Of a stretch of DNA of 64,000 nt, positions 2,165 to 62,143 are shown one piece after another. Made by a program: the position numbers and the translations under genes. The stretch spans positions 1 through 64,000 of the forward strand of contig DAIDJM010000059.1 of assembly GCA_027451405.1 (NCBI GenBank). The letters run 5' to 3'. The notes below the pieces were generated by a model. The model was not told the origin of the DNA. It made no database searches and worked only from the letters and a program-made list of their open reading frames with translations. The number at the start of each line of letters is the position of its first letter. The stretch's first letter is position 1. The stretch is from Acetobacteraceae bacterium. Lineage in GTDB: Bacteria; Pseudomonadota; Alphaproteobacteria; Acetobacterales; Acetobacteraceae.

Positions 2165-2506
2165 ATGACGATCACGCGCTTCCTGCGGCGCGCCGCTTTG
2201 CCGGCCGCGCTGCTGGCCAGCACCGCGCTCGGCGGCTGCTACACCTACCCTTATGGGTATTACGGCGCCGGATACGGCTACCCCGCCTATTACGGCGGCT
2301 ATTACCCCGCCTATGTCGGCACCGGCGTGGTCGTCGGCGGCTGGGGCTGGGGCTGGCACCCGGGCTGGGGCTATGGCTGGGGCTGGCACGGCGGCTGGGG
2401 CTGGCATGGCGGCTGGGGCGGCGGCTGGCACGGCGGCTATGGCGGCGGCTGGCATGGCGGCTATGGCGGCGGCGGCGGCGGCATGCATTTCGGCGTGCAC
2501 CGCTGA
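2165..2506 (+). CDS. Small Gly/Trp/Tyr-rich putative lipoprotein
   Basis: A 113-residue protein with a GGAG ribosome-binding site 5 nt before the ATG. It has a basic N-terminus, a hydrophobic stretch and a lipobox-like LGGC ending near residue 25, so it is probably lipidated. The mature part is Tyr/Gly-rich (YGYYGAGYGYP) followed by near-perfect repeats of a GWGWHGG type unit and a Gly run, ending in a short MHFGVHR tail. Nothing catalytic is visible. It may be a surface or envelope structural protein. It is transcribed divergently from the FecR-like gene across a 280-nt gap in which I see no other gene. Confidence 0.75.
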   Translation: MTITRFLRRAALPAALLASTALGGCYTYPYGYYGAGYGYPAYYGGYYPAYVGTGVVVGGWGWGWHPGWGYGWGWHGGWGWHGGWGGGWHGGYGGGWHGGYGGGGGGMHFGVHR

Positions 2507-4671: not shown

Positions 4672-4785
4672 CCTCTGGCGTGCCTCTCCGGCCGCCCGGG
4701 CTCTGGGGTCATTTTCGAAAGAAGAGGGTCTGGGGCCTTCCGGCCCCAGCGGGTCCCGGGCCAGAGCCCGGGCCGCCAGGGGCCG
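4672..4785. repeat. GC-rich two-hairpin intergenic repeat, copy 1
   Basis: The core hairpin CTGGGGCCTTCCGGCCCCAG is at 4730-4749. GCCCGGGCTCTGG (4694-4706) is the exact reverse complement of CCAGAGCCCGGGC (4761-4773), so the whole unit can fold on itself. It lies between the PLP-fold gene and opgC and probably acts as a transcription terminator or structured spacer. Confidence 0.75.
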
Positions 4786-11124: not shown

Positions 11125-11160
11125 ATGGCCTTCCGGCCCCAGCGGGTCCCGGGCAGCGCC
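11125..11160. repeat. Partial copy of the GC-rich intergenic repeat (copy 2)
   Basis: The segment carries GGCCTTCCGGCCCC followed by AGCGGGTCCCGGGCAGCGCCC, matching the right half of copy 1. The left half is missing, so this is a truncated copy. Confidence 0.55.
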
Positions 11161-11186
11161 CACCCAGACCGATTCCGGTCTGGGTG
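11161..11186. terminator. Bidirectional hairpin terminator between convergent genes
   Basis: CACCCAGACCG pairs perfectly with CGGTCTGGGTG around a 4-nt ATTC loop (11 bp stem). It lies between the convergent UspA and lipoprotein genes. There is no T-run of note on either side, so efficiency is unknown, but the perfect stem and position support a shared terminator. Confidence 0.6.
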
Positions 11187-19118: not shown

Positions 19119-19233
19119 GTTCTTTTTTTGAAAAAAAAGAACCAAAAAAACTTCTTCCGTATGGGACCGGGGGGTGCAGCAACCTCCGTCTCATACGAGT
19201 GAAGTCTTTTTGCTTCCTTTTCTTCAGAAAAAG
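19119..19233. repeat. AT-rich palindromic intergenic element, copy A
   Basis: It begins with GTTCTTTTTTT-G-AAAAAAAAGAAC (19119-19142) and ends with CTTTTTGCTTCCTTTTCTTC plus AGAAAAAG. The left and right halves are imperfect reverse complements of each other over about 45 nt, including GTATGGGAC paired with GTCTCATAC around a GC-rich loop. A second copy is at 30677-30786. It stands out in a very GC-rich genome. It lies upstream of the minus-strand amidase gene and downstream of the glycosyltransferase gene. Confidence 0.75.
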
Positions 19234-19240
19234 CAGGGTC

Positions 19241-21124
19241 TTAAAAAACCCTCAACATGTCCCGAAACGCCTCCATCTCGGGTATGTCCGCAGGCCCCGA
19301 ATCGAGAAACGCCTGCGTCAATCGCCGCAGCCGGAGCGGCATCGCGCCGCGGATCTCGGCATCGGCGTCGCCGACGCCGGGCAGGGCGCGCAGGCGCGCG
19401 AGTTCGGCCTCCGATCCGGGCAGGCAGCCGCGCCGGTCGGCGACGCGCGGGCCGCGCGCCAGCGAGACGAAGCTGCGGCAGATGAAGTGCCGGAACGCGG
19501 TTTCGCGCTCGGCCGTGCGGGCAGGCCAGTCGCCGCGGCCGCGGGCGAGTTTCCAGAGCGCCTCGGGGGCGCTGCGGAACAGATAATGGTTCACCCAGGC
19601 ATGGCTCGCGGACGGCGCGGCGGCGAAGGCGGGTAGCCGGCCCTCGATGCCGGGATGGTGGTGCAGCGCGCCGGTTTCGTTGCGGAAAAAAAAGGGGAGC
19701 CCGAGCGGCGAATAGGGGAAGTGCGACTGCGCGTGCCAGAAGCGCTGCGGGCGGAACAGCGATTTCACGTGCGGATTGATGGCGGGTTCGCGCTCGGTGA
19801 AGCGCAGTGTGGTCGGCGCGTCGCGCCAGCCTTCGCCGCCGCCGGAGGCGAAGATGAGCCAGCAGAGCGCGACCGCGTCGGTCGGCTGGGTTTCCTGGAA
19901 CGCCAGAAAATCCGCGATGGTGGTAAACGACCCCGTATCGAGCACCAGATATTCGTCCGGGTCGAGAATGGCGGTCCAGCGATAGTCGAGGATGGCGGGC
20001 AGCAGCGAGAGCGCGTGCGCGTAGGCTTTCGGCTGCGGTCCGAAATGGCCGCCCGGCATGTTCTCGATCCAGGTGATTTCGCCGGCGGCGGCGAGCGAAC
20101 CGAGCAGCGCCTCCGAGCCGTCGTCGCAATCGTTTGAATAAAGGAACAGATGCTCGAAGCCGAGGGCGCGGTGGTGGGCGATCCATTCGAGCAGATAGGG
20201 ACCCTCGTTGCACACGCTGGCGAGCAGGCAGGCGCCGCGGCGCGGCGCCACGCGGCGGCGGGCGAGAGCCGCCATCGCCTGCCCGGCCTGGGGCTGCCCG
20301 AACCCTTCGATCGCGTCCCCGGCGAACTGGTCGGCGGCCGGCGAGGCGAGTCGCGCGGGCGGCGGCCCGGGCGCGCGCGACCAGGCGGCGAGCGGCGCGA
20401 GTGCGCCTGTGATCCAGGGATTGCGCGGCATCGCCGCCCGCAGCAGCGCCAGCGTGTCGGGGTTGGCGAGTGCCAGCGCGGCGAGCCGTTCGAGCTCATC
20501 GGACGGCAACAGCCGGATCAGCGGCTCGGCCAAAGCCTGGCGCACCACGCCGCCGCGCAGCAGGGCGATCAGCGGTTCGGCGCGGAACGGGCGGGACGCG
20601 GCCTCGGCCAGTTCGATCGCGGCGAGCCGGGCCGGCTCGGCCACCGCCGGCGCGGACACCGGCTCGAGCCCCAGAGCGCCGAGCGGGCCGTTGCCGAAAC
20701 CGTCGAACACGACGCACCCTTCGGGCGAGCCTTCGCCCGGCCGCGTGACCGCGAGATAGCGGCCGGAGAGCGGATGGCGCAGCCGGATCAGGTCCGGCTC
20801 CGGACCCGGCAGCCGGAAACCCGAGATGGCGACTGCGCGCAGCCCGTCCGACTGCACTTCGAGCGGGCGCAGATCGGGCGCGAGCAGGAAGCAGAGGCTG
20901 GGATTGGCGTCGGGGATCGCGACCAGCAGCCGGCCCGGATCGGTGCCGCCCATGCCGATGCGCGGCGCGCCGGGGTGGAGCCAGTCCCCGCGGCCGGTGC
21001 GGGCATGGTAGAAGCGGATGCCGTCGCGCCGGGATGCGTGGCGCCCGATTGAGGGGGAAGCCGGCCGCGAGAGCGGCAGGGCGGGCGGCGGCGCCGGGCG
21101 CGTACGGAAGCCGAAAAATCCCAC
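19241..21124 (-). CDS. Glycosyltransferase (GT2/GT92-like) with large N-terminal region
   Basis: A 627-residue protein starting at GTG 21124, with AGGAGG 9 nt upstream; the frame is open further upstream. Residues about 1-290 are unassigned, with a beta-rich part (GIRFYHARTGRGDWL, RHPLSGRYLAV) and then helices. The catalytic domain begins near residue 305 (CLLASVCNEGPYLLEWIAHH and LFLYSNDCDDGSEALL) and has the metal-binding DPDEYLVL. This is typical of the DUF23/GT92-like and related GT2 enzymes that act from the cytoplasm. The acceptor and donor are unknown. It is divergent from mazG. Confidence 0.8.
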   Translation of the reverse strand: MGFFGFRTRPAPPPALPLSRPASPSIGRHASRRDGIRFYHARTGRGDWLHPGAPRIGMGGTDPGRLLVAIPDANPSLCFLLAPDLRPLEVQSDGLRAVAISGFRLPGPEPDLIRLRHPLSGRYLAVTRPGEGSPEGCVVFDGFGNGPLGALGLEPVSAPAVAEPARLAAIELAEAASRPFRAEPLIALLRGGVVRQALAEPLIRLLPSDELERLAALALANPDTLALLRAAMPRNPWITGALAPLAAWSRAPGPPPARLASPAADQFAGDAIEGFGQPQAGQAMAALARRRVAPRRGACLLASVCNEGPYLLEWIAHHRALGFEHLFLYSNDCDDGSEALLGSLAAAGEITWIENMPGGHFGPQPKAYAHALSLLPAILDYRWTAILDPDEYLVLDTGSFTTIADFLAFQETQPTDAVALCWLIFASGGGEGWRDAPTTLRFTEREPAINPHVKSLFRPQRFWHAQSHFPYSPLGLPFFFRNETGALHHHPGIEGRLPAFAAAPSASHAWVNHYLFRSAPEALWKLARGRGDWPARTAERETAFRHFICRSFVSLARGPRVADRRGCLPGSEAELARLRALPGVGDADAEIRGAMPLRLRRLTQAFLDSGPADIPEMEAFRDMLRVF

Positions 21125-28524: not shown

Positions 28525-28591
28525 GGCGTGCCTCCGGAGCTTGTGGGGTCTGGGGCCTTCCGGCCCCAGCGGGCCGCCGGAGGCACGCCTC
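28523..28591. repeat. GC-rich intergenic repeat, compact perfect dyad copy (copy 3)
   Basis: GAGGCGTGCCTCCGG (28523-28537) is the exact reverse complement of CCGGAGGCACGCCTC (28577-28591). Inside is the core hairpin CTGGGGCCTTCCGGCCCCAG. It starts within the lexA stop codon and separates convergent lexA and tonB, so a bidirectional terminator role is likely. Confidence 0.8.
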
Positions 28592-30676: not shown

Positions 30677-30786
30677 GTTCTTTTTTGAAAAAAAGAACCG
30701 AAAAACTTTCTCGCATGTGACGAGGCGGTTCAACCACCCCGTCCTATACGGATAAAGTCTTTTTGCTTCTTTTTCTTCCGAAAAAG
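30677..30786. repeat. AT-rich palindromic intergenic element, copy B
   Basis: It begins GTTCTTTTTTGAAAAAAAGAAC and ends CTTTTTGCTTCTTTTTCTTC plus CGAAAAAG, matching copy A (19119-19233) in both hairpins and overall layout. The centre differs (CGGTTCAACCACCCCG). It lies in the divergent gap between exbB and the cupin gene. I see no gene elsewhere in that gap (30516-30817). Confidence 0.75.
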
Positions 30787-30817
30787 GAGAATCCTTACCT
30801 TCCCGCCGAGGCCCGGC

Positions 30818-32864: not shown

Positions 32865-34715
32865 ATGAGCGAATCCAATCCGCTGGCCGAGTTCATGGGC
32901 AGCGAAGCCGAAGCGCGCGAGACCGAAGGGCGCACCGATTTCGACCCGCTGCTGACGCCCGCCGCCTTCGCCGCCGCCGCCCAGCATCCCGAGATCGCCA
33001 GGGAGCTCGGCAGCTACATCGACCAGCAGCGGCGCTTCGTCAAAATCCAGACCGAGCACCTGCACGAGCAGCGCGCGGTCATGGTGCAAAACCTGCGGCT
33101 GCGCACCCATAGCGAACGGATCCGGCTGGTGATCCAGCTCGTGATCCTGGCCGTCGTGGCCAGTTTCGTCGCGCTCGTCGCGCAGCTCGTGATCAGCGCC
33201 GTCAACGCTCAGGACGTCATCGTCGACCCGTTCGACGTGCCGCCGGCCTTGGCGACCTCGGGGCTCACCGGCGAAGTGGCCGCCGCCTCGCTGCTGGACG
33301 AGCTGACCGCGATCCAGAACGGCACGCGCGCGATCGGCGGCAAGCGACGCGTCGAGGCGGCCTGGTCCGGCGAAATCCGGGTGGAAATTCCCTCGACCGG
33401 GATCGCGATCGGCGAAATCTCGAAATTGCTGCGCAAATGGCTCGGGAACGACACGCATATCGGCGGCGAGATCGTCTCGCTGCCGGGCGGGCGCATGTCG
33501 CTCACCGTGCGCGGCACCGATATCCCGGCCCGCAGCTTCACCGGACCGGATACCCATCTCGAGGATCTCTCGCGCGAGGCCGCCGAATATCTCTATGCCG
33601 CGACCGCGCCCGATCTGTTCGCGGAATATCTGTTCCAGCAGCAGCGCTACGGCGAACTGATCGGCTTCCTCGACGCGCATTACTGGTCGGCGCCGAAGCA
33701 GCACCGCGCCGAGATGCTGGAATTGTGGGGCGAGAGCCTGGCGCTGCAGGGCCAGCTCGACCCGGCGCTCGAAAAGCTGCGTTTCGCGCTGACCCAGAAC
33801 CCCTACGACTGGGATCTGTGGGAAGACATCACCCACATCACGCTGCTGGCCAAAGGCGTCAAGGCCGGGCTCGCGGCCGCGGCGGCGATGCATGCGCAGG
33901 CGAAATCGGCGCCACCCGACAAACAGCCGAACCCGATCTCGTTCGCTTACGAACTGATCTGGCACGCCGACTATATCGGCGCGGCGAACGCCATGGCGAA
34001 CGACGAGGCGACGCCGATCGGCGGCGTGTGGGGCACGCCCATCCAATCCAACATCGCCTGGCTGCAGGCGCTGCTGCATGATTGGGACGCGGCCGAGAAC
34101 TGGCTGCTGTCCGATCTGCCGAGCGATCCCGAGCGCGAGCCGATCGGCCACCTGATCGCCGGCATGCGCGCGCTCGAGCAAGGCAACCCGGCGGATGCCG
34201 TGGGGCATTTCCGTGCCTATGCGAAAGCCTGGCATGCCATTGCTGATCTGCAATATTGGCTGCCGAACGCGCCCTGCTATCTCGCGGTGGCGCTCGCCGG
34301 TCAGGGCCAGGCGGATGCGGCGCGCGCGGCGCTGGCCGAGGGCGATCAGGCGCCGGGGAGTGCGGTCTGGGGGTGTGCCACGGCGCGCGGACGCGTCGAG
34401 GAGGCGCTCGGCAACCGCGCGGCGGCGGACGCGGCCTTTCAGAAGGCGATCGATTTGTTCCAGAGCCTGCCGCAGGCGTTCAACGCCCGCGGCCGCGCGC
34501 GGCTGGCGCGCGGCGATTATGCCGGGGCGATCGCGGATTTCGCCGCCGCGCACGAGCGCGGGCCGAAATGGGCCGATCCGCTCAAATATTGGGGCGACGC
34601 GCTGATGGCGCAGGGCAAGCGGGACGATGCGATGGAGAAATATCGCGCGGCGCTGCCGCTGGCGCCGGGATGGGCGGAGTTGCGGGCGGCCCTGCAAAGG
34701 GCAAAGGGCAAGTAG
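32865..34715 (+). CDS. Membrane-anchored TPR-repeat protein
   Basis: A 616-residue protein with the ATG at 32865 preceded by GGAGGCAGGC. The N-terminal 85 residues are cytoplasmic. A transmembrane helix lies at about 88-112, followed by AQDVIVDPFDVPPAL and a domain with IAIGEISKLLRKWLG. Several TPR-like helix pairs lie between about 240 and 616 (DPALEKLRFALTQNPYDWDLW, AFQKAIDLFQSLPQAFNARGRARLARGDYAGAI). It probably scaffolds periplasmic proteins. No named family is recognised. Confidence 0.8.
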   Translation: MSESNPLAEFMGSEAEARETEGRTDFDPLLTPAAFAAAAQHPEIARELGSYIDQQRRFVKIQTEHLHEQRAVMVQNLRLRTHSERIRLVIQLVILAVVASFVALVAQLVISAVNAQDVIVDPFDVPPALATSGLTGEVAAASLLDELTAIQNGTRAIGGKRRVEAAWSGEIRVEIPSTGIAIGEISKLLRKWLGNDTHIGGEIVSLPGGRMSLTVRGTDIPARSFTGPDTHLEDLSREAAEYLYAATAPDLFAEYLFQQQRYGELIGFLDAHYWSAPKQHRAEMLELWGESLALQGQLDPALEKLRFALTQNPYDWDLWEDITHITLLAKGVKAGLAAAAAMHAQAKSAPPDKQPNPISFAYELIWHADYIGAANAMANDEATPIGGVWGTPIQSNIAWLQALLHDWDAAENWLLSDLPSDPEREPIGHLIAGMRALEQGNPADAVGHFRAYAKAWHAIADLQYWLPNAPCYLAVALAGQGQADAARAALAEGDQAPGSAVWGCATARGRVEEALGNRAAADAAFQKAIDLFQSLPQAFNARGRARLARGDYAGAIADFAAAHERGPKWADPLKYWGDALMAQGKRDDAMEKYRAALPLAPGWAELRAALQRAKGK

Positions 34716-34725
34716 CCTGCGGCGG

Positions 34726-34835
34726 GCAGGGAGCTTTGCCCCTGCACCCCATTGGGGCCGGAAGGCCCCAAACCCCGCTTTGTCGGGTATCCGGGGGCCT
34801 ATGGCTCCAGTGGCGATGGGGGCAAAGCTCCCTGC
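34726..34835. repeat. GC-rich intergenic repeat, copy 4
   Basis: GCAGGGAGCTTTGCCCC (34726-34742) is an exact 17-bp inverted match to GGGGCAAAGCTCCCTGC (34819-34835). A TTGGGGCCGGAAGGCCCCAA hairpin lies inside. The right arm lies within the coding end of the next permease gene. It separates convergent genes. Confidence 0.8.
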
Positions 34836-36319
34836 GCGCCGGAAGCGAACGGCGCCGGCCGGCGCCGCAGCCGCGAATGCCTTGCCCCATACATCGCGTA
34901 AACCACGCCCCCGATCATCAGCCACAGCGCCAGCCGCCACCAGGTCCCGTTCGACAGCGACGCCATCAGCCAGAAGCAACTCAGCACCGCCAGGATTGGC
35001 GTCACCGGCATGAACGGGGTGCGGAACGGCCGGTGCGCGTCCGGCATCGTGCGGCGCAGAATCAGCACGCCGGCGGACACCACGGCGAAGGCCAGCAGCG
35101 TGCCGATCGACACGAGATCGCCCAGCAGATCGAGCGGGAACACTGCCGCGAACAGCGCCGCCCCGATGCCGGTGACGAGGCTGCCGACATGCGGCGTGTG
35201 GTAGCGCGGGTGGATGCGGGCGAAGGCCGGCGGCAGCAGACCGTCCCGGCCCATGGCGTAAAAGATGCGCACCTGCCCAAGCAGCGTGACCAGCAGCACC
35301 GAGATAAGTCCGAACACCGCGACGATGCTCACGCACCAGCGCGCCCAGTCGAGACGATGGCCTTGCGCGCGCAGCGCCTCGGCGATCGGGTCTGCGACGT
35401 TCAGCGTGCGGTAATCGGCGATGCCGGTCATGATCAGCGCCACACCGACATAGAGGACGACGCAGATCGCGAGCGACAGCATCAGCGCCAGCGGAATCGT
35501 GCGCTGCGGATTTTTGGTTTCCTGGCCGAGAGTCGAGACGGAATCGAATCCGACATAGGCGAAGAACAGGATGCCGGCGGCGCGCATCACGCCCGAGAAG
35601 CCGTAATGGCCGGAGATGCCGGTGTTGGGCGGAATGAACGGGTGCCAGTTGGCCGGCACGACATAGGGCGCCGCGCCGATGATGACCGCCACGATCGTGA
35701 GCACCTTGAGCCCCACGATGGCGTCGTTCACCTGCGCCGAAAGCTTGGTGCCGCGCAGGATCAGCCAGGCCGTGAACAGCGTGATGGCGACGGCCGGCAG
35801 GTCGAACCATTTGCCGCTGGCATAGACGCTGCCGTCCGCCGCGACCGCGAGCGGCGCGCCGGTGATCGCATTCGGCAGATCGAAGCCGAAACTATGTAGC
35901 GTCGCCGTGAAATATCCCGACCAGCCGATCGCGACGAGCGACCCGCTCATCAGATATTCGAGCAGCAGGCACCAGCCGATCATCCAGGCGACACCCTCGC
36001 CCATCGTTGCGTAGGCGTAGGAATAGGCGCTGCCCGCGACCGGCACGAGGCCTGCGAACTCGGCGTAGCAGAGCGCCGCGAACAGGCAGGCGAGGCTCGC
36101 GATCACGAAGGAGAGCGCCACCGCCGGGCCGGCATGGATGGCGGCCTCCGGCCCGGTCTGCACGAACAGCGAGACGCCGACCGCGGAGCCGACGCCGAAG
36201 CCGACCAGGTTGCGCAGGCCCAGGCTGCGCTGGAGATGGCCGCCGGCATGCGGGTCGGATTCCGCCGCGTCGGCGTCGGCCAGCATGGCGGCGATGTTCT
36301 TGCGGGACCAGAGGGACAT
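34799..36319 (-). CDS. APC-superfamily amino-acid permease (CAT/YfnA-like)
   Basis: A 506-residue protein with about 12 transmembrane segments. It has LRNLVGFGVGSAVGVSLFVQTG in TM1, LCYAEFAGLVPVAGSAYSYAYATMGE in TM3 and FFAYVGFDSVSTLGQETKNPQRTIP in TM6-7, the cationic amino-acid transporter (CAT) pattern. The last about 14 residues (SGAQGALPPSPLEP) are encoded by the GC-rich intergenic repeat, so the original stop has probably been replaced. The substrate is inferred only at the family level. Confidence 0.88.
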   Translation of the reverse strand: MSLWSRKNIAAMLADADAAESDPHAGGHLQRSLGLRNLVGFGVGSAVGVSLFVQTGPEAAIHAGPAVALSFVIASLACLFAALCYAEFAGLVPVAGSAYSYAYATMGEGVAWMIGWCLLLEYLMSGSLVAIGWSGYFTATLHSFGFDLPNAITGAPLAVAADGSVYASGKWFDLPAVAITLFTAWLILRGTKLSAQVNDAIVGLKVLTIVAVIIGAAPYVVPANWHPFIPPNTGISGHYGFSGVMRAAGILFFAYVGFDSVSTLGQETKNPQRTIPLALMLSLAICVVLYVGVALIMTGIADYRTLNVADPIAEALRAQGHRLDWARWCVSIVAVFGLISVLLVTLLGQVRIFYAMGRDGLLPPAFARIHPRYHTPHVGSLVTGIGAALFAAVFPLDLLGDLVSIGTLLAFAVVSAGVLILRRTMPDAHRPFRTPFMPVTPILAVLSCFWLMASLSNGTWWRLALWLMIGGVVYAMYGARHSRLRRRPAPFASGAQGALPPSPLEP

Positions 36320-36404: not shown

Positions 36405-36530
36405 GAGGCGTGCCTCCCGTTCCTTCAGGGATCGCCTCAGCCAGCACGGCGGTTCGCCGTCATGGGGGTCTCGGGCCTTTCGGCCCCAGTCGGGTCCAGG
36501 GGCAAAGCCCCGGCCGCCGGAGGCACGCCT
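36405..36530. repeat. GC-rich intergenic repeat, copy 5
   Basis: GAGGCGTGCCTCC at the left is the inverted match to GGAGGCACGCCT at the right end. The centre has CGGGCCTTTCGGCCCCAG and a second hairpin GGGGC-AAA-GCCCC. It lies between tandem minus-strand genes, and its right edge touches the ppc stop codon. Confidence 0.75.
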
Positions 36531-40852: not shown

Positions 40853-40930
40853 CGAGGCGCGGGGTCCAGGGCCTTCCGGCCCCAGCCGGGGTGCGGGAGA
40901 CGAAGCCTCCGCCCCGCCGCAGGCTCGCCC
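40853..40930. repeat. GC-rich intergenic repeat, copy 6 (degenerate)
   Basis: The segment contains GGGCCTTCCGGCCCCAGC and, to the right, GGAG...CTCC, in the same order as other right half-elements. It overlaps the 5' end of the AmpG-like gene. Confidence 0.6.
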
Positions 40931-42108
40931 TCATGCTCCCGTTCGGCTTCGCGAGCGGGCTCCCGCTCCCGCTCAGCACCTTCACGCTGCATCAATGGTT
41001 CGCGGTCGCCGGCATCTCGGTGCAGACGATCGGGCTGCTCGCCCTCGTCGCCCTGCCCTATACGCTGAAATTCCTCTGGTCGCCGCTGTTCGACCGCGCG
41101 CCGCCCTGGGCGCCCGCCGCGCGCCGCCGCGGCTGGCTCCTGCTCGTCCAGCCGCTGCTCGCCGGCGCCATCCTGCTGCTCGCCTCAAGCGATCCCGCGA
41201 CCGGACCGGCGCTCACCGCCGCGGCGGCGGGGCTGGTCGCGCTGATGTCGGCGAGCCAGGACATCCTGATCGACGCCTGGCGGATCGACACGTTCGCGGA
41301 ACACGAACAAGGTGCCGCGCTCGCCGCCTATGTCTGGGGTTACCGCACCGCGATGGTGGTCGCCAATGCCGGCGCGATCTGGCTTTCGACGAAAATCGGC
41401 TGGCATCTGGCACTCGCGCTGGTGGCCTCGCTGGTGGGCGTCGGGTTCGCGACCGCGTGGCTGGCGCCCGAGCCGGAAGGTGCGGCGCTCGTGAACCGCC
41501 CGGCGGGTCTTGCCGCCTTCCGCGCCGCGATCCTCGACCCGCTGCGCAATTTCCTCACCCGCGAGAACGCGGCGTGGCTGCTGGCCTTCGTCATCCTGTT
41601 CCGATTGGGCAAGGTGTTCGCCGACCAGACCGCGGCCCCGTTCTACCGCTACGCGCTGCATTTCTCCTCGGCCGCGGTGGCGGCGGCCAATACGGTCCCG
41701 CAACTGATCGGCACCTTCGCGGGCGCCGCGGCGGGCGGCGCGCTGGTGGCGCGGCTCGGCGCGCGCCGCGCGGTGCTGGTCGCCGGAACCGCCCAGGCGC
41801 TCTCGCTCGGTCTCTATATCCTGCTCGACCGCCACCCGACCGGCCCGATGCTGGCGGCGAAAGTGGGCGGCGAATTCCTCGCCGGCGGCGCCGCCGACAC
41901 CGCCTTCCTCGCCTATGTCTCGACGCTCTGCTCGCGCAACTATTCGGCCTCGCAATACGCGCTGCTTTCCTCGCTGGCGGCGCTCGTGTTCCATACGCTG
42001 GGCGGGCTGTCGGGCTACACCGAGGCGGCGCTTGGCTGGGTGCCCTTCTTCGCGTTCACGATGCTGGCGAGCCTGCCGGCGCTCGCGATCCTGGGACGAT
42101 TGCGGTGA
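40891..42108 (+). CDS. AmpG-like MFS transporter
   Basis: About 405 residues with 12 transmembrane segments. The AmpG hallmark LPFGFASGLPLPLSTFTLHQW begins about residue 15, and SQDILIDAWRIDT, the second hallmark, follows. AmpG proteins import muropeptide anhydro-sugars for recycling. The start is unclear. GTG 40891 aligns with the usual N-terminal length. A TTG at 40819 (overlapping the preceding gene) and an ATG at 40933 are alternatives. The upstream part lies within a repeat element. No ampD or nagZ is nearby. Confidence 0.8.
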   Translation: MRETKPPPRRRLALMLPFGFASGLPLPLSTFTLHQWFAVAGISVQTIGLLALVALPYTLKFLWSPLFDRAPPWAPAARRRGWLLLVQPLLAGAILLLASSDPATGPALTAAAAGLVALMSASQDILIDAWRIDTFAEHEQGAALAAYVWGYRTAMVVANAGAIWLSTKIGWHLALALVASLVGVGFATAWLAPEPEGAALVNRPAGLAAFRAAILDPLRNFLTRENAAWLLAFVILFRLGKVFADQTAAPFYRYALHFSSAAVAAANTVPQLIGTFAGAAAGGALVARLGARRAVLVAGTAQALSLGLYILLDRHPTGPMLAAKVGGEFLAGGAADTAFLAYVSTLCSRNYSASQYALLSSLAALVFHTLGGLSGYTEAALGWVPFFAFTMLASLPALAILGRLR

Positions 42109-42320
42109 GGCGCGCCTCCGGCGGGCAGGGCTCTGCCCTGCACCCGCTGGGGCCGAAAGGCCCCAGACCCCATGACTTTGAATGGGCCGGGCAGGCTTCC
42201 GCGACTTTTTAAAGAAATGGGGTCTGGGGCCTTTCGGCCCCAGCGGCTTGCGGCCGGCGCGCCATCGGTCCGAGCACCGGACGCAAGAGAGGCGGAGCCT
42301 CTGCCCGCCGGAGGCGCGCC
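42109..42320. repeat. GC-rich intergenic repeat, double inverted copy (copy 7)
   Basis: This is the best-formed copy. The outer arms at 42109-42128 and 42301-42320 are perfect 20-bp inverted repeats. The inner arms at 42146-42173 and 42217-42244 are a perfect 28-bp inverted pair, each holding a CTGGGGCC...GGCCCCAG hairpin. It fills the gap between the convergent transporter and sulfotransferase genes. Confidence 0.85.
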
Positions 42321-42325
42321 CCGCT

Positions 42326-43177
42326 TCAGGCGCCGAGTGCCGCGAGCCGCGCGATGGTGCGCCCACGTGCCTGTTCGGCGATCGCAGCCGCGTCCGCCCG
42401 GGCGAGCGTTTCCGTCCAGAGCACGCGATCGAGCCGGGTGCGCGCCTCGAGCCGCGCCCAGGCCTCGCTCGTCAGTTCCGCCGCCAGATCGAGCCTCGCG
42501 TCGGGCGGCAGATTGGGCGTTTCGTTCACGCGCTGCGGCGTGAAATCGCGACCGAGCCAGGCCGCGAGACGCGCCCAGAAATCGGGCGCTTCGGCGATGC
42601 CCACATGATCGAAACGGGCGAGCGAGGCGCGCGCCGCGTCGAGCAGGCCCGCATCTTCCTCCGGCGGGATGAACCCGCCATCCGGGATCCGCTCATGCGG
42701 CCAGAGCAGAAGCCGGAGCGCCACATTGTCGATCTGGCACGCGATTTCCGGGCTTTCGAGAAACGCCGCGAGCGGTCCGCGCGCGAGCGCCATGCGGCCG
42801 GCCCAGCCGCCCCAGTCGGCGAGAGCCGCCGGCGGGAAACTGCGCCAGAAGACGAAATGCGAGAGCAGCCGGCAGACCGGCTCCCGGAGCACGGTGACGA
42901 ACTGACCGCCGCCGTAGGCGGCGCGCAGCGTCGAGGCCGACATATGCGCGCGCACGAGGCGCTCGCCGAGCGGGATGGTTGCCGGGCCAAAATGGATAAA
43001 TCCGCGGTTTTCGCTGCCGACCGTATCGAAATCGGTGAAGCTGCCGAAAAAAGCGAGATCGAAGCCGAACAGGCAGCGCGGCGGATCGGCCGCCTGCACG
43101 AGCGCATCCGCGACCGCGATGCCCGCCGTCTTCGGGATGTGCATGAACACAAGCGGCCGGGAGGGATCATAAGTCAT
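42326..43177 (-). CDS. Sulfotransferase family protein
   Basis: A 283-residue protein. The start is set at ATG 43177; an upstream extension is repeat-derived. LVFMHIPKTAGIAVADAL is the 5'-phosphosulfate-binding loop and VLREPVCRLLSHF the 3'-phosphate-binding element. It uses PAPS to sulfate an acceptor, possibly a glycan. It is flanked on both sides by repeat elements and sits between the transporter and glyQ. Confidence 0.85.
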   Translation of the reverse strand: MTYDPSRPLVFMHIPKTAGIAVADALVQAADPPRCLFGFDLAFFGSFTDFDTVGSENRGFIHFGPATIPLGERLVRAHMSASTLRAAYGGGQFVTVLREPVCRLLSHFVFWRSFPPAALADWGGWAGRMALARGPLAAFLESPEIACQIDNVALRLLLWPHERIPDGGFIPPEEDAGLLDAARASLARFDHVGIAEAPDFWARLAAWLGRDFTPQRVNETPNLPPDARLDLAAELTSEAWARLEARTRLDRVLWTETLARADAAAIAEQARGRTIARLAALGA

Positions 43178-43212
43178 GGGGTTTGGGGCACGGGAGGTGC
43201 GCCGCTTTGGTT

Positions 43213-43428
43213 GATGCGCGCCTCCGGCGGCCCGGGCTCTGCCCGAGACAAGCTGGGGCCGAAAGGCCCCAGACCCCATCCCGTCGAATAAGCCATGCTG
43301 GCGGAGCCGATTTCCTGACGTCACGGGGTCTGGGGCCTTTCGGCCCCGGCGGCCTGCGGCCGGCGCGCCATCGGTCCGAGCAACGGAGGCAAGAGAGGCG
43401 GAGCCTCTGCCCGCCGGAGGCGCGCATC
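43213..43428. repeat. GC-rich intergenic repeat, double inverted copy (copy 8)
   Basis: The outer arms at 43213-43230 and 43411-43428 are perfect 18-bp inverted repeats. CTGGGGCCGAAAGGCCCCAG starts at 43253, and its inverted partner is at 43325-43347. It is strongly similar to copy 7, including CGGCCTGCGGCCGGCGCGCC-type sequence and AGAGGCGGAGCCTCT. Confidence 0.85.
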
Positions 43429-46317: not shown

Positions 46318-46527
46318 GGCCTCCGGCGGGCAGGGGGGCTTTGCCCCTCGCCATTGGTGCTTGAACCAATGGCGCACTCAATGGCGAACCCCACTGGGGC
46401 CGAAAGGCCCCAGACCCCGTTTCTTTAGAAAGTCGCCCCAGCGAGCAAGGCCTATTCAAGGCGATGGGGTCTAGGGCCTCTCGGCCCCGGCTTGTCCCGG
46501 GCAGAGCCCGGGCCGCCGGAGGCACGC
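46318..46527. repeat. GC-rich intergenic repeat, double inverted copy (copy 9)
   Basis: It starts GGCCTCCGGCGGGCAGGGGGGCTTTGCCCC and ends with CCCGGGCAGAGCCCGGG and CCGCCGGAGGCACGC. Hairpin CTGGGGCCGAAAGGCCCCAG lies in the left half and a mutated version (TAGGGCCTCTCGGCCCC) in the right half. An ATTGGTGCTTGAACCAAT hairpin lies in the middle. The right half is inside the coding 3' end of the photolyase gene. Confidence 0.8.
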
Positions 46528-58015: not shown

Positions 58016-58086
58016 GGCCTCCGGCGAGCAGAGGCTCCGCCTCTGCACTCCGCTGGGGCCATCAGGCCCCAGACCCCCTTTCTTCA
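58016..58086. repeat. GC-rich intergenic repeat, half copy (copy 10)
   Basis: Two hairpins in the standard order: GCAGAGGC-TCC-GCCTCTGC (58028-58046), then CTGGGGCCATCAGGCCCCAG (58053-58072), followed by ACCCC. It lies between gpmI and the first epimerase gene. Confidence 0.75.
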
Positions 58087-58153: not shown

Positions 58154-59683
58154 CTAACGCGCGGCGCAGATGGCCGGTTCGATCAGCGACCGTCCGGTCA
58201 TGGCCGGCGGAATATCGAGCCCCATCAGTTCCAGCAGGGTCGGCGCAAGATCGCAGAGCCGTCCGTCATGCAGCCCGACAGAACCCGCGCCGTGCAAAAA
58301 CACCGGCACGGGGTTCGTGGTATGCGACGTGTGCGGTCCGCCGGTCTCGGGATCGCGCATCAGCTCGCAATTGCCGTGGTCGGCCGTCACGAGAATCGCG
58401 CCGCCCGCCGCGTCGATCGCGCGCGCGATCCGTCCCAGCCCCTCATCGACCGTCTCGACTGCGCGGATCGCCGCGTCGAGGTCGCCGGTATGCCCGACCA
58501 TGTCGGGATTGGCGTAATTGAGCACGATGAGATCGTATTGTCCGGAGCCGATCGCAGCCACCGCGCGATCCGTCAGTTCCGGGGCCGACATTTCCGGCTG
58601 CAGATCGTAGGTGGCCACTTTCGGCGAGGGAACCAGGATGCGGTCTTCGCCCGCGTAGAGCGTTTCCTTCCCGCCGTTGAGAAAATAGGTGACGTGAGGG
58701 TATTTCTCGGTCTCCGCCATGCGAAGCTGCCGGCGTCCGGCGGACGCCACCACCTCTCCCAGAAGCTGGTCGAGCGGCTGGGTCGGAAAAATCACGCCCA
58801 TGCGCGCGGCGAGCGCGTCGCTGTAGCGCGTCATGCCGGCGAACGCCGAAAGTTCGGGCAGGCGGGCGCGGGGAAAACCGTCGAAAGCAGGATCGGTGAG
58901 GCTGGCCAGCAGCTCGCGCACGCGATCCGCACGGAAGTTGAAACACAACAGCGAATCGCCGTCTTTCATTCCGTCATAGGCGCCGACCACGGCGGGAGCG
59001 ATGAATTCGTCGGTCGTGCCTTCCGTGTAGGCCGCTTCGATCACCTGGCCGGGACTGGAGAATCGCGGCGCTTCGGCGAGCGCGATCGCGCGCCACGCGC
59101 GCTCCACACGGTCCCAGCGCTTATCGCGGTCCATCGCGTAGTAGCGGCCCGACACGGTGACGATGCGGGCGTTCTCGGGCAACGCCTCGGTGAGTTCCCG
59201 CAGGAAACCCGCCGCCGTCTGCGGACCCGTATCGCGTCCGTCGGTGAAGGCATGCACGGCGACCGCCAGTCCGGCATCGGTCAGGATGCGCGCCAGCGCC
59301 ACCGCATGATCCTGGTGCGAATGGACGCCGCCATCCGAGACGAGACCGCACAAATGACAGACGCCGCCGCGTTTCCGCGTGGCCTCGATGAGCGAGCGCA
59401 GCGCCGGCGCCTCCGCCAGACGCCCGTCGCGCACGGCGTTACCGATCCGCACCAACTCCTGCTCGACCACGCGGCCCGCACCGATATTGAGGTGCCCCAC
59501 TTCGGAATTGCCCATCTGGCCCTCCGGCAATCCGACATCGTTGCCGGATGTGTGCAGGAAGGCCCGCGGCGAGTTTTGCCAGAGCCGGTCGAAATTGGGC
59601 TTGCGCGCGAGGGCGACGGCATTGTCGGCGGACTCTGCGCGCCAGCCGAATCCGTCGAGGATGACGAGCATCACGGGTTTCAT
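58154..59683 (-). CDS. gpmI: 2,3-bisphosphoglycerate-independent phosphoglycerate mutase
   Basis: A 509-residue protein. D10 (LVILDGFG) and the phosphorylated S60 (GNSEVGHLNIGAG) are metal and nucleophile residues of the alkaline-phosphatase fold. RYYAMDRDKRWDRVE and VTADHGNCE complete the metal sites. It interconverts 3- and 2-phosphoglycerate in glycolysis. Its ATG overlaps the maeB stop by 4 nt. The length is normal. Confidence 0.95.
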   Translation of the reverse strand: MKPVMLVILDGFGWRAESADNAVALARKPNFDRLWQNSPRAFLHTSGNDVGLPEGQMGNSEVGHLNIGAGRVVEQELVRIGNAVRDGRLAEAPALRSLIEATRKRGGVCHLCGLVSDGGVHSHQDHAVALARILTDAGLAVAVHAFTDGRDTGPQTAAGFLRELTEALPENARIVTVSGRYYAMDRDKRWDRVERAWRAIALAEAPRFSSPGQVIEAAYTEGTTDEFIAPAVVGAYDGMKDGDSLLCFNFRADRVRELLASLTDPAFDGFPRARLPELSAFAGMTRYSDALAARMGVIFPTQPLDQLLGEVVASAGRRQLRMAETEKYPHVTYFLNGGKETLYAGEDRILVPSPKVATYDLQPEMSAPELTDRAVAAIGSGQYDLIVLNYANPDMVGHTGDLDAAIRAVETVDEGLGRIARAIDAAGGAILVTADHGNCELMRDPETGGPHTSHTTNPVPVFLHGAGSVGLHDGRLCDLAPTLLELMGLDIPPAMTGRSLIEPAICAAR

Positions 59684-62067
59684 GGCATTCTACCTCCGGC
59701 GGCCAGGGCGCCGCCCTGGATCCGCTGGGGCCAACGGGCCCCAGACCCCATTCCCATCGGTTGAGCGCCCGTTTCCCGGGGGCTCGACAAGGTCCCCCGT
59801 CCGCCGGACGCATCGACCGACACCAAAGCGGTCAAATTCGCGATGCCGCGCGCCGTCACGCTCGGCACCAGCACATGAATGGGCTTGCACATCCCAAGCA
59901 GCATCGGTCCCACCGGCAGCCCGTCGGCCGCTGCCTTCAGCAGCGTGAACGCGATGTTCGCCGCGTCGAGATTGGGCAGGATCAGCAAATTCGCCGTGCC
60001 CGCAAGCCGGCTGTCGGGCACGGCGCGCTCGCGGATCGCCTCCGACAGCGCCGCATCCGCATGCATCTCCCCATCCACTTCGAGCTCCGGCGCGCGCGCC
60101 CGGATGAGCGCCAGCGCCGCGCGCATCTTGCGCGCCGAGGGCGACCGGCTGGCTCCGAAACTCGAGTGAGACAGCAAGGCGATTTTCGGCGTGAGACCGA
60201 ATCCGCGCACCGCGTCGGCGGCCAGCAGCGTCATTTCCGCGACCTCGTCCTCGTCGGGATCGACATTCATGTGCGTGTCGCACATGAAGATCGCGCCGCT
60301 TTGCAGGATCACCGCCGAGAGCGCGAATACGCGCGTCACGTCCGGCCGGCGCGGAATGATCGGCAGCATATAGGCCATCTGCCGCCACCAATCGCCGGTG
60401 CCGCCGCACAGCGCGGCGTCCGCCTGCCCGGTATGCAGCAGCATCGCGGCGGTGACGGTCGGGCGGTTGCGGATGCGGCGCGCCGCGGCGTCGGGCGGCA
60501 CGCCGCGGCGCCCGACCAGCGCCTGATAGGGCGCCACGAGACCATCATAGACGCCGCCATCGAGGCTCGGATCGAGCACCTGCACATCGTCGCCGATCCG
60601 CAGGCGCAACGCCAATTCGCGCACGCGCCGCGCGATCACGTCGCGGCGGCCCAGCAGCACCGGTTGCGCGATGCCCTCGTCCAGCGCGATCTGCACCGCC
60701 CGCAGCACCCGCTCGTCCTCGCCTTCCGCATACACCACCCGCGCGGGATGCTTGCGCGCGGCCTCGAACACCGGACGCATGAGCTGGCCGGAACGGAATA
60801 CGAAACGTTCGAGCGTCTCGCGGTAATGGTCGAAATCCTCGATCGGGCGCGCGGCGACGCCGCTTTCCATCGCCGCCCGCGCGACCGCGGGCGCGACATG
60901 CAGGATCAGCCGGGGATCGAACGGCTTCGGAATGATATAGCTCGGGCCGAAAATGGGGGCGCTGCCGCCATAGGCCCGCGCCACCACCTCGTCGGCCTCC
61001 ATGCGGGCGAGCTCGGCGATCGCCTCGACCGCGGCGATCTGCATCGGCCGGTTGATGGTGCTGGCCGCGACATCGAGCGCGCCACGGAAGATGAAAGGAA
61101 AACAAAGCACATTGTTGACCTGGTTCGGCAGGTCGCTGCGCCCGGTCGCGATGATCGCATCCGGCCGTGCGGCGCGCGCGGCGTCGGGATCGATCTCGGG
61201 GACGGGATTGGCCAGCGCGAGGATCACCGGCCGCGGCGCAAGCCGGTCCAGCCATTCCGGACGCAGTACATTCGGCGCGGAGAGGCCGAGGAAAATGTCG
61301 GCGCCCGGCAGCACGTCGGCGAGCGTGCGCGCGTCCGTGCGGCGCGCGTAACGCGCCATGTTCGGCGCCATGCCGGGATCGCGCCCCGCATACACCACGC
61401 CGGCGACGTCCGTGAGCGTCACGGCGTCCGCCGGCAGGCCCATCTCCACCAGCAGATCGACGCAGGCGAGGGCCGCCGCTCCCGCGCCGGCCGTGACCAG
61501 CCGCACCCCATCCAGCGGCTTGCCCTGCAGCAGGAGCGCGTTGCGCACCGCCGCCGCGACCGTGATCGCGGTGCCGTGCTGATCGTCATGGAACACCGGA
61601 ATGCCCATGCGCGCCTGCAGCCGCGCCTCGATCTCGAAACATTCCGGGGCTTTGATATCCTCCAGGTTGATCGCGCCGAAACTCGGCTCGAGCGCCGCCA
61701 CCACCTCGACGAACCGATCCGGGTCGTCGGCGCTCACCTCGATATCGAACACGTCGATCCCGGCGAACTTCTTGAACAAGGCCGCCTTGCCCTCCATCAC
61801 CGGCTTGCCCGCCAGCGGACCGATCGCGCCCAGCCCCAGCACCGCCGTGCCGTTCGTGATCACCGCCACCAGATTGCCGCGGCTCGTAAGGTCCCGTGCG
61901 GCCGCCGGATCGGCAACGATCGCCTCGCAGGCGGCGGCGACACCCGGGGAATAGGCGAGCGACAGATCGCGCTGCGTGACCATGCGCTTGGTGGGCTCGA
62001 TCGCGAGTTTTCCGGGCCGCGGATGACGGTGATAGTCGAGCGCGGCTTCGCGGAAATCGGGGTCCAT
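59680..62067 (-). CDS. maeB: NADP-dependent malic enzyme with phosphotransacetylase-like domain
   Basis: A 795-residue protein. The ATG at 62067 is used because the upstream extension is repeat-derived. The malic domain begins [20 protein letters not shown] with [15 protein letters not shown] and [15 protein letters not shown](P)-binding [16 protein letters not shown] follows. The C-terminal PTA-like domain (about 430-760, [16 protein letters not shown]) is typical of MaeB and is often regulatory. It makes pyruvate, CO2 and NADPH. The last residues ([20 protein letters not shown]) come from a repeat element. It is coupled to gpmI. Confidence 0.94.
59692..59756. repeat. GC-rich intergenic repeat, half copy (copy 11), inside the end of maeB
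   Basis: Hairpins CCAGGGC-GCC-GCCCTGG and CTGGGGCCAACGGGCCCCAG are in the standard order, followed by ACCCC. It lies inside the last about 22 codons of maeB, upstream of the gpmI start. Confidence 0.75.
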
Positions 62068-62071
62068 CTTT

Positions 62072-62143
62072 TGCCTCCGGCGGGCAAGGGGCGCTGCCCC
62101 TTGCATCCCCGCTGGGGCCACCGGCCCCAGACCCCTCTACTTA
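62072..62143. repeat. GC-rich intergenic repeat, half copy (copy 12)
   Basis: GCAAGGGG...CCCCTTGC (62084-62104), then CTGGGGCC-ACC-GGCCCCAG and ACCCC. It lies between the DUF4175-type gene and maeB, just before the maeB start. Confidence 0.75.

Follow-up and report, generated by a model that had tools for sequence, protein, structure and literature searches.

The GC-rich intergenic repeats in the window (the whole 64,000-nt stretch of DNA analysed here) carry, beside their variable hairpin, a run of bases that appears to serve as a third strand. The linker that follows this hairpin (HP2) complements the purine strand of the stem in parallel (mirror) orientation, position for position. In the sequence comparisons the stem pairs are shown to covary, the run is shown to covary with the stem in the parallel and not in the antiparallel sense, the three strands shift in length together, and the base that comes after the run covaries with the loop. 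A triple helix would be the best reading of this covariation. Taken as a whole, the observations are probably best explained by selected intrastrand triple-helix beads that act as orientation-independent punctuation at gene ends, a reading to which we assign a probability of roughly 0.58. The combined claim that the three-stranded fold is the selected unit, that the punctuation of gene ends is family-wide and that stem, counter-strand and Hoogsteen strand have repeatedly changed together is more tentative, at a little short of even odds.

Read along the C-rich strand, a half-element begins with the arm GCCTCCGGCGG, continues with HP2 (a variable stem with a three-base loop), the linker and the hairpin HP1 (CTGGGGCC-N3/4-GGCCCCAG), and ends with the tail ACCCC and a T-rich stretch. 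Halves occur singly or as inverted pairs, in which the arms mostly lie outside. The features in the window are given below by coordinates and strand.

42109-42320, unstranded: full inverted-pair element between convergent genes, flanked by an MFS permease gene ending at 42108 (+) and by a gene at 42326-43150 (-).
42114-42172, +: left half-element (arm, HP2, putative third strand, HP1, tail), covariance model, 75.7 bits.
42114-42124, +: outer arm GCCTCCGGCGG, 5 nt past the stop codon.
42125-42141, +: HP2 hairpin GCAGGGC-TCT-GCCCTGC (variable stem), from sequence and family comparison.
42142-42146, +: turn A, proposed third strand CCC parallel to the stem GGG, then a G that covaries with the middle C of the loop, from sequence and family comparison.
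42147-42166, +: HP1 hairpin CTGGGGCC-GAAA-GGCCCCAG.
42167-42171, +: ACCCC tail, the proposed third strand of HP1.
42218-42315, -: right half-element with an extra hairpin module between HP1 and HP2, covariance model.
4724-4783, -: half-element, covariance model.
11125-11165, unstranded: shortened remnant, below the covariance-model threshold.
28544-28584, -: short element, HP1 and arms without HP2, covariance model.
34715-34777, +: half-element, covariance model.
34785-34846, -: degenerate partner half, a weak match (27.5 bits, E 0.0065).
36464-36524, -: half-element, covariance model.
40860-40924, -: half-element, covariance model.
43220-43278, +: half-element of the pair 43198-43425, covariance model; this pair is 82% like 42092-42319.
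43324-43421, -: partner half with an inserted module, covariance model.
46319-46419, +: half-element with an inserted hairpin module between HP2 and the putative HP2 third strand.
46465-46523, -: partner half, covariance model.
58017-58078, +: half-element with a GAGG/CCTC stem and putative CTCC third strand.
59692-59750, +: half-element within the 3' end of the malic enzyme frame.
62073-62136, +: half-element with an AAGGGG/CCCCTT stem and putative TCCCC third strand.

The core CTGGGGCC-N2-6-GGCCCCAG occurs nine times in the window against none in 100 dinucleotide shuffles, and 283 exact cores are present in the 3.37 Mb, 67-contig assembly, in which the same pattern read backwards occurs 0 times. 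A covariance model was built from 34 half-elements of this genome, two of them from the window. The MAFFT alignment of halves of mixed length misplaces the variable stem, so the model holds only 16 pairs, and the pair counts for stem and run given below were taken instead from a gap-free set of 26-nt modules. At E-values of up to 0.01 the model places 15 half-elements in the window and so recovers 11 of the 12 sites for which a preliminary description had listed copies; the remaining one, at 11125, is a shortened copy that scores below the model threshold. A genome-wide covariance search, which that description had proposed, places the family beyond the window as well: 172 half-elements were found in the 1,228,412 bases read (61 stretches, a non-random sample in which contigs were picked partly for known repeat matches), and the search of the whole genome returned at least 150 matches, with all 150 scored candidates matching out of 7,148 candidates. 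The repeats are short intergenic palindromes in high copy, and the cores, the model matches and the positions in gaps between genes bear out the description of a real, genome-wide, REP-like family. No Rfam family matches the window at the gathering score, and the plasmid and phage records searched gave no match to the repeat, nor did blastn against E. coli genomes. The window also contains a second, A/T-rich repeat pair (19124-19245 and 30680-30798), made up of a GTTCTTTTTT-type hairpin and a 51-nt stretch of 84% identity, and a short called gene at 2165-2506 (+) lies over GGCTGGCACGGCGGCT-type repeats.

Selection on the fold had been deduced earlier from compensatory changes in the stem, and this deduction is supported by the double changes and by a covariation score above that of shuffles. 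Across 32 distinct 26-nt modules 96.1% of the stem cells pair, and three of the eight stem pairs are changed on both sides; the statement that the stem always pairs is therefore nearly right. If the loop-run pair is taken together with the eight stem pairs, 96.2% of cells form a standard pair, and there are 24 double-changed cells (14 belong to the stem, 10 to the loop-run pair), compared with at most three once the partner is displaced by 1-3 columns. Both the covariation score and the percentage paired are reached by 0 of 500 shuffles; the number of further pair types, one of the five measures, shows no excess over shuffles. The earlier picture of a two-strand hairpin thus holds for the stems but is incomplete, as the putative third strand belongs to the conserved unit.

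The correspondence between stem and run extends over many types. GAGG is accompanied by CTCC, AGGG by TCCC, AGGGG by TCCCC, GGGAGG by CCCTCC and GGGGAGG by CCCCTCC, while G runs of 3, 4 or 5 are matched by C runs of 3, 4 or 5. Nine stem types in all (GGG, GGGG, GGGGG, GAGG, AGGG, AGGGG, GGAGG, GGGAGG and GGGGAGG) are accompanied by a matching run in one module or more, and the asymmetric AAGGG type is found in the genome of the window and in genus g34. Within this genome, 42 of 77 distinct HP2-plus-linker sequences are fully parallel-complementary, the first (turn) base excepted, whereas shuffled linkers give a mean of 19.6 and a maximum of 31 in 5,000 shuffles. In eight genera the match is complete in 48 of 72 distinct exact-stem modules (shuffled linkers: mean 21.2, maximum 31 in 10,000), and the G run and the C run are equal in length in 58 of the 72. 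There are about ten types of purine run and the shuffles take no account of shared ancestry, so that the independent events are far fewer than the modules; some of the types may share ancestry.

The direction of the match is best seen in the 62 modules with an asymmetric purine run, where the parallel register is the better one in 24 (several of them by a margin of one position), the antiparallel register in a single module, which is a parse with a displaced C, and 37 are ties. In alignment A1, 93.8% of the cells in the four parallel contacts are complementary and 11 double changes are seen (at most two when slid); the antiparallel register reaches 85.2% and has no double changes. A one-column slide of the antiparallel register yields 10 double changes as well, because one column pair holds most of the signal in the 26-nt modules. 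If the run paired with the stem in a shifted Watson-Crick register, it would be a direct repeat of the 3' strand; this reading was rejected because asymmetric stems would then need CCTC or CCCT runs and the parallel register prevails by 24 to 1. The linker was also considered as a copy of the loop, which suits only the commonest module (GAGG/TCC) and not the others.

The three strands also change length together. The distance from the arm to HP1 is 23, 26, 29, 32 or 35 nt, and 83 of 99 distinct regions (a set that includes some chance matches) fall into one length residue class modulo 3; the steps of three would correspond to one base in each of three strands. The middle base of the loop and the base after the run form C-G in 53 cases, T-A in 12 and A-T in one in the eight genera, with the non-pairing combinations C-A, T-G and C-C in three, two and one cases, respectively (Fisher p 3.5e-9). 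HP1 tends to obey the same stem-run rule: the first run and the tail are G4/C4 in 142 of 214 parsed cases and G3/C3 in 23, the 49 other combinations including parses of other beads. The rule has exceptions. A full match is absent from 24 of the 72 modules from the eight genera, replacements by AA or AG recur within the run in the genome of the window, and three of the four modules from genus g83 combine GGGAAGG with the run CCCATCC.

A de novo grammar scan of the 1.23 Mb returned 241 hairpins with an asymmetric purine run, followed downstream by a parallel run in 34 cases and by an antiparallel run in 11; on one shuffle it returned 28 hairpins, with one parallel run and no antiparallel run. 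Seven of the 11 antiparallel cases are GGAGG, GGGAGG or GGGGAGG modules of the family in which the mirror run contains CCTC by chance. The scan also gave an 'identical' count of 33 and a 'mirror' count of 30, for which the constant outer arm may be responsible. Slippage, duplication and template switching yield direct or inverted repeats and not mirror repeats. The asymmetric types therefore require either selection or chance, and the results with shuffles disfavour chance for these types.

A third strand that has the same direction as the purine strand and sets C against G-C and T against A-T follows the pyrimidine-motif code as described in those parts of Holder et al. (2015; PMC4666352) that concern triplex motifs, and the same symmetry gives the purine-motif code, as defined there, on the other strand. 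The element would then be a string of beads, each consisting of a GC-rich hairpin, a short turn and a run lying back along the stem. The C-rich strand would present a purine strand, a pyrimidine strand and a Hoogsteen strand, which corresponds to class III in the published scheme, and the G-rich strand would take the reverse-Hoogsteen class I form. Selection would keep the intrastrand triple helix, or a fold with equal contacts, and the triple helix would form when the DNA is single-stranded or supercoiled, including during transcription or replication. More speculatively, the folded strand might hinder polymerases at the ends of convergent or tandem genes from either side, copies might be reshuffled via recombination or gene conversion, and new sites might have arisen by a route needing no Y1 transposase. 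The g83 combination CCCATCC/GGGAAGG breaks the pyrimidine code and fits the purine motif, in which T may face A-T, a small hint in favour of the G-rich DNA strand as the folding strand.

Several points count against triplex beads. The third strand is only 3-7 nt long, the C-rich form requires protonated C and, as noted, 24 of 72 modules lack a full match. A further point is the fold of the paired element. The segments 42144-42182 and 42208-42246 are 92% complementary over 39 nt, the fold of 42109-42320 has z = -15 against shuffles, and its predicted minimum-energy form is a single long hairpin joining both halves; the long hairpin and the separate beads thus compete there. Inverted pairs with perfect arms had been described previously, and the pairs do exist, but the perfect 28-nt match (42217-42244 with 43252-43279) links two neighbouring elements and not the arms of one.

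The beads can repeat or be interrupted: other genera may have three hairpins in succession, or a further hairpin inserted between HP2 and HP1, the linker staying with HP2. Extra modules are inserted between the hairpins in the window too, at 42244-42300 and 46350-46390 (for example CGCCATTGGTGC-TTGA-ACCAATGGCG), and other genera carry different inserts at a similar place. For a rule like that of Box C, by which paired halves differ in type, one of 17 pairs was alike (25 pairs minus eight with a chance hairpin on one side) against 3.1 expected, and 13.5% of shuffles were as low.

To place the elements relative to genes, the latter were called with a custom codon-usage script, which leaves 653 gaps of 20 bp or more in the sequence read. 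Of the convergent gaps, 51 of 140 hold a unit, compared with 68 of 374 tandem and 10 of 139 divergent ones (p 2e-9 for convergent versus divergent). The units total 216, of which 18 without a neighbour on one side were left out. Inside called genes lie 28 of the 216, nine at most 50 nt from the stop and 19 farther away; some of the latter may reflect miscalled genes. A same-strand stop is present within 60 nt of the exact arm in 57 of 99 halves, and in 21 of these 57 it lies 4-6 nt before the arm. The orientation in tandem gaps is unbiased: this genome has 41 sense and 46 antisense units, and seven further genera have 17 and 27 once 16 units at the edges of loci are set aside (pooled p 0.22). 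This lack of bias favours a DNA-level or two-way role over a single mRNA fold, and a role specific to the RNA strand was rejected on these grounds.

The preliminary description had also proposed a terminator activity, and the location agrees with it: the units are enriched in convergent gaps and near stop codons, and a T-rich stretch lies 3' of HP1, with the consensus ACCCCaTtactTt in 95 halves of this genome (selected by exact arm and GACCCC) and similar stretches visible by eye in other genera. The elements could thus be bidirectional intrinsic terminators or mRNA 3'-end structures in which the run acts in RNA, as a pyrimidine-motif triple or in a pseudoknot-like manner, and the loop-run base pair does resemble a pseudoknot contact. 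An intrinsic terminator would have its T-tract directly after the stem and would be oriented with the upstream gene, whereas here ACCCC intervenes before the T-rich stretch and tandem copies point either way. Moreover, the account of triplex motifs in Holder et al. (PMC4666352) has purine-motif triplexes not forming in RNA, so that antisense tandem copies could not act in this manner. We therefore regard a role as terminator or RNA structure as somewhat unlikely.

The distribution among relatives is patchy. The pattern of HP1 with its tail occurs in 101 of 249 genomes of the family and 56 of 102 genera, with none in 148 genomes; two copy-rich examples have 222 forward and 215 reverse copies (G168) and 88 and 72 (G142). 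A stricter two-hairpin pattern is present in two of 385 genomes from the class, both of the same family as the window. Four species of genus g34 carry an element at one and the same convergent site. In three of them the left module is G3/C3/C3 with loop C and base G and the right module is G4/C4/C4 with T and A; in the fourth species (G194) the left and right types are exchanged (L091:1006-1212; counterparts G235, G142 and G194). This site was at first read as a matched three-strand change, a reading dropped for a flip of the element, as by recombination between the arms, which explains the exchange without stepwise change. The site therefore persists while whole modules move, and the flip slightly lowers the odds of triple-helix beads and of the combined claim given at the outset, and raises those of an ordinary repeat. 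In a comparison of the same g34 locus (L091; G033:C45:15500-29500) with G142 and G194, homology stops at the borders of the second element and of the third, close to 6349/6556 and 12610-12620/12781-12843; these points could be rearrangement breakpoints of the kind reported for TM_ECO, or in part contig ends. Elsewhere in g34 (L076-L095, G033) there are dozens of copies of a ~205-bp stretch, ~80-96% identical, in which a central CCGCCTTCGGCGGGGAGGGGCC inverted repeat separates two beaded halves.

The repeats could be ordinary REP/BIME-like palindromes in which a few early module types were copied and the match between run and stem is a founder accident or a consequence of C-richness. The small number of types with many copies each would be expected from such copying, as would the movement of modules in blocks seen in the exchange at the orthologous site, and the location is REP-like. 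Founder accident or C-richness does not readily account for nine stem types with a matching run, or for 48 full matches where shuffled linkers give at most 31, and the known copying mechanisms give no mirror repeats. Ordinary palindromes are on balance an unlikely explanation.

Mobility through a RAYT (Y1) transposase, for which the end hairpins and foot sequences would be signals, is very unlikely. The high and patchy copy number and the arrangement in inverted pairs are as expected of REP/RAYT elements, and there is an apparent insertion into a gene end at 59692. The malic enzyme frame at 59680-62067 (-) encodes 795 aa and runs through the half-element 59692-59750, whereas matches to most of 80 relatives end near residue 745-760, and the C-terminus has apparently been extended by repeat sequence; the best named relative of the enzyme is from an Acetobacteraceae MAG (76% identity), which points to this family as the probable source of the window. 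The transposase search suggested in the preliminary description speaks against the link, which was rejected. Y1_Tnp (PF01797) was not found in the genome of the window, and in the family it does not track copy number, being present in four of 16 copy-rich and two of 14 copy-free genomes, so that 12 of the 16 copy-rich genomes lack it. Furthermore, CGTC-tagged REPs are given as missing in Acetobacteraceae in the relevant part of Di Nocera et al. (2013; PMC3733652), which makes no mention of GTAG repeats in this family, and one element lies at the same site in four species. Least probable of all is a G-quadruplex or i-motif repeat built on four G-runs in a single strand: the G-rich strand of copies with a G4 stem does read GGGG-TCT-GGGG ... 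GGGG-TGCA-GGGG, but the GAGG and GGGAGG types interrupt the G-runs and still keep the mirror rule, and neither the stem pairing nor the loop-run covariation is explained.

If the repeats are triple-helix beads, as we favour, natural variants that alter three strands in register would constitute independent evidence for a three-stranded contact. Joint change of the three strands in different lineages would make the Hoogsteen code, and the pair between loop and third strand, readable by comparative genomics in the way that Watson-Crick covariation is for RNA. Matched and mismatched natural alleles are ready for experiments, and the repeats offer an evolutionary way to ask whether triplex folds matter in living cells. 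In the open-access literature searched, nothing closer was found on triplex repeats of Acetobacteraceae or on third-strand covariation.

Among other known repeats, the REP/BIME sequences associated with RAYT (GTAG- and CGTC-tagged), as treated in the portion of Di Nocera et al. (2013; PMC3733652) used here, are likewise high-copy intergenic palindromes that occur singly or as inverted pairs; the present elements differ in having no Y1 link and in having a putative third strand. A MITE would have terminal inverted repeats, a target-site duplication and an empty site in relatives; here inverted arms are present, and the one site compared closely is occupied in all four species. H-DNA mirror repeats share the mirror symmetry between two pyrimidine runs, but in the present repeats the mirror partner lies beside a Watson-Crick hairpin in one strand, with three segments per strand and not two.

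Nearest in kind are the intrastrand-triplex repeats of E. coli and its relatives, Box C/PIT/TM_ECO (the PIT work is that of Hoyne and Maher, cited in Holder et al., 2015; PMC4666352), although class and sequence differ. The comparison draws on the sections of Holder et al. that describe these elements. Like them, the present repeats are short, GC-rich and intergenic, with a strand that could fold into a hairpin and third strand; they are abundant in some genomes and few or absent in near relatives, show no strand bias, form some inverted pairs and have loops that vary more than the stems. A purine run, a pyrimidine run and a (reverse-)Hoogsteen run in one strand, the arrangement sought in PIT elements, occur in 48 of 72 modules. 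The published PIT-type searches used stems of at least 6-8 triads, whereas most modules here have 3-5 and only the GGGAGG and GGGGAGG types reach 6-7, and the Box C consensus CCCTCNCCC-N3-6-GGGNGAGGG-N3-GGGNGAGGG differs in order and sequence. For Box C elements that source found neither a footprint of a stable triplex in vivo nor any terminator activity; TM_ECO triplexes are described there as stable in vitro, with in vivo data that did not support their stable formation. TM_ECO belongs to class II, with a stem and third strand of 9 nt, and is more often upstream of genes; the present elements would be class I on the G-rich strand and class III on the C-rich strand, have third strands of mostly 3-5 and at most 7 nt and several beads in a row, and favour gene ends. 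TM_ECO is one near-fixed sequence in the same account, and evolution is therefore hardly usable there as a test of the triplex. Intrastrand-triplex repeats are already known from these examples; in the repeats described here the stem and the putative third strand have diversified together.
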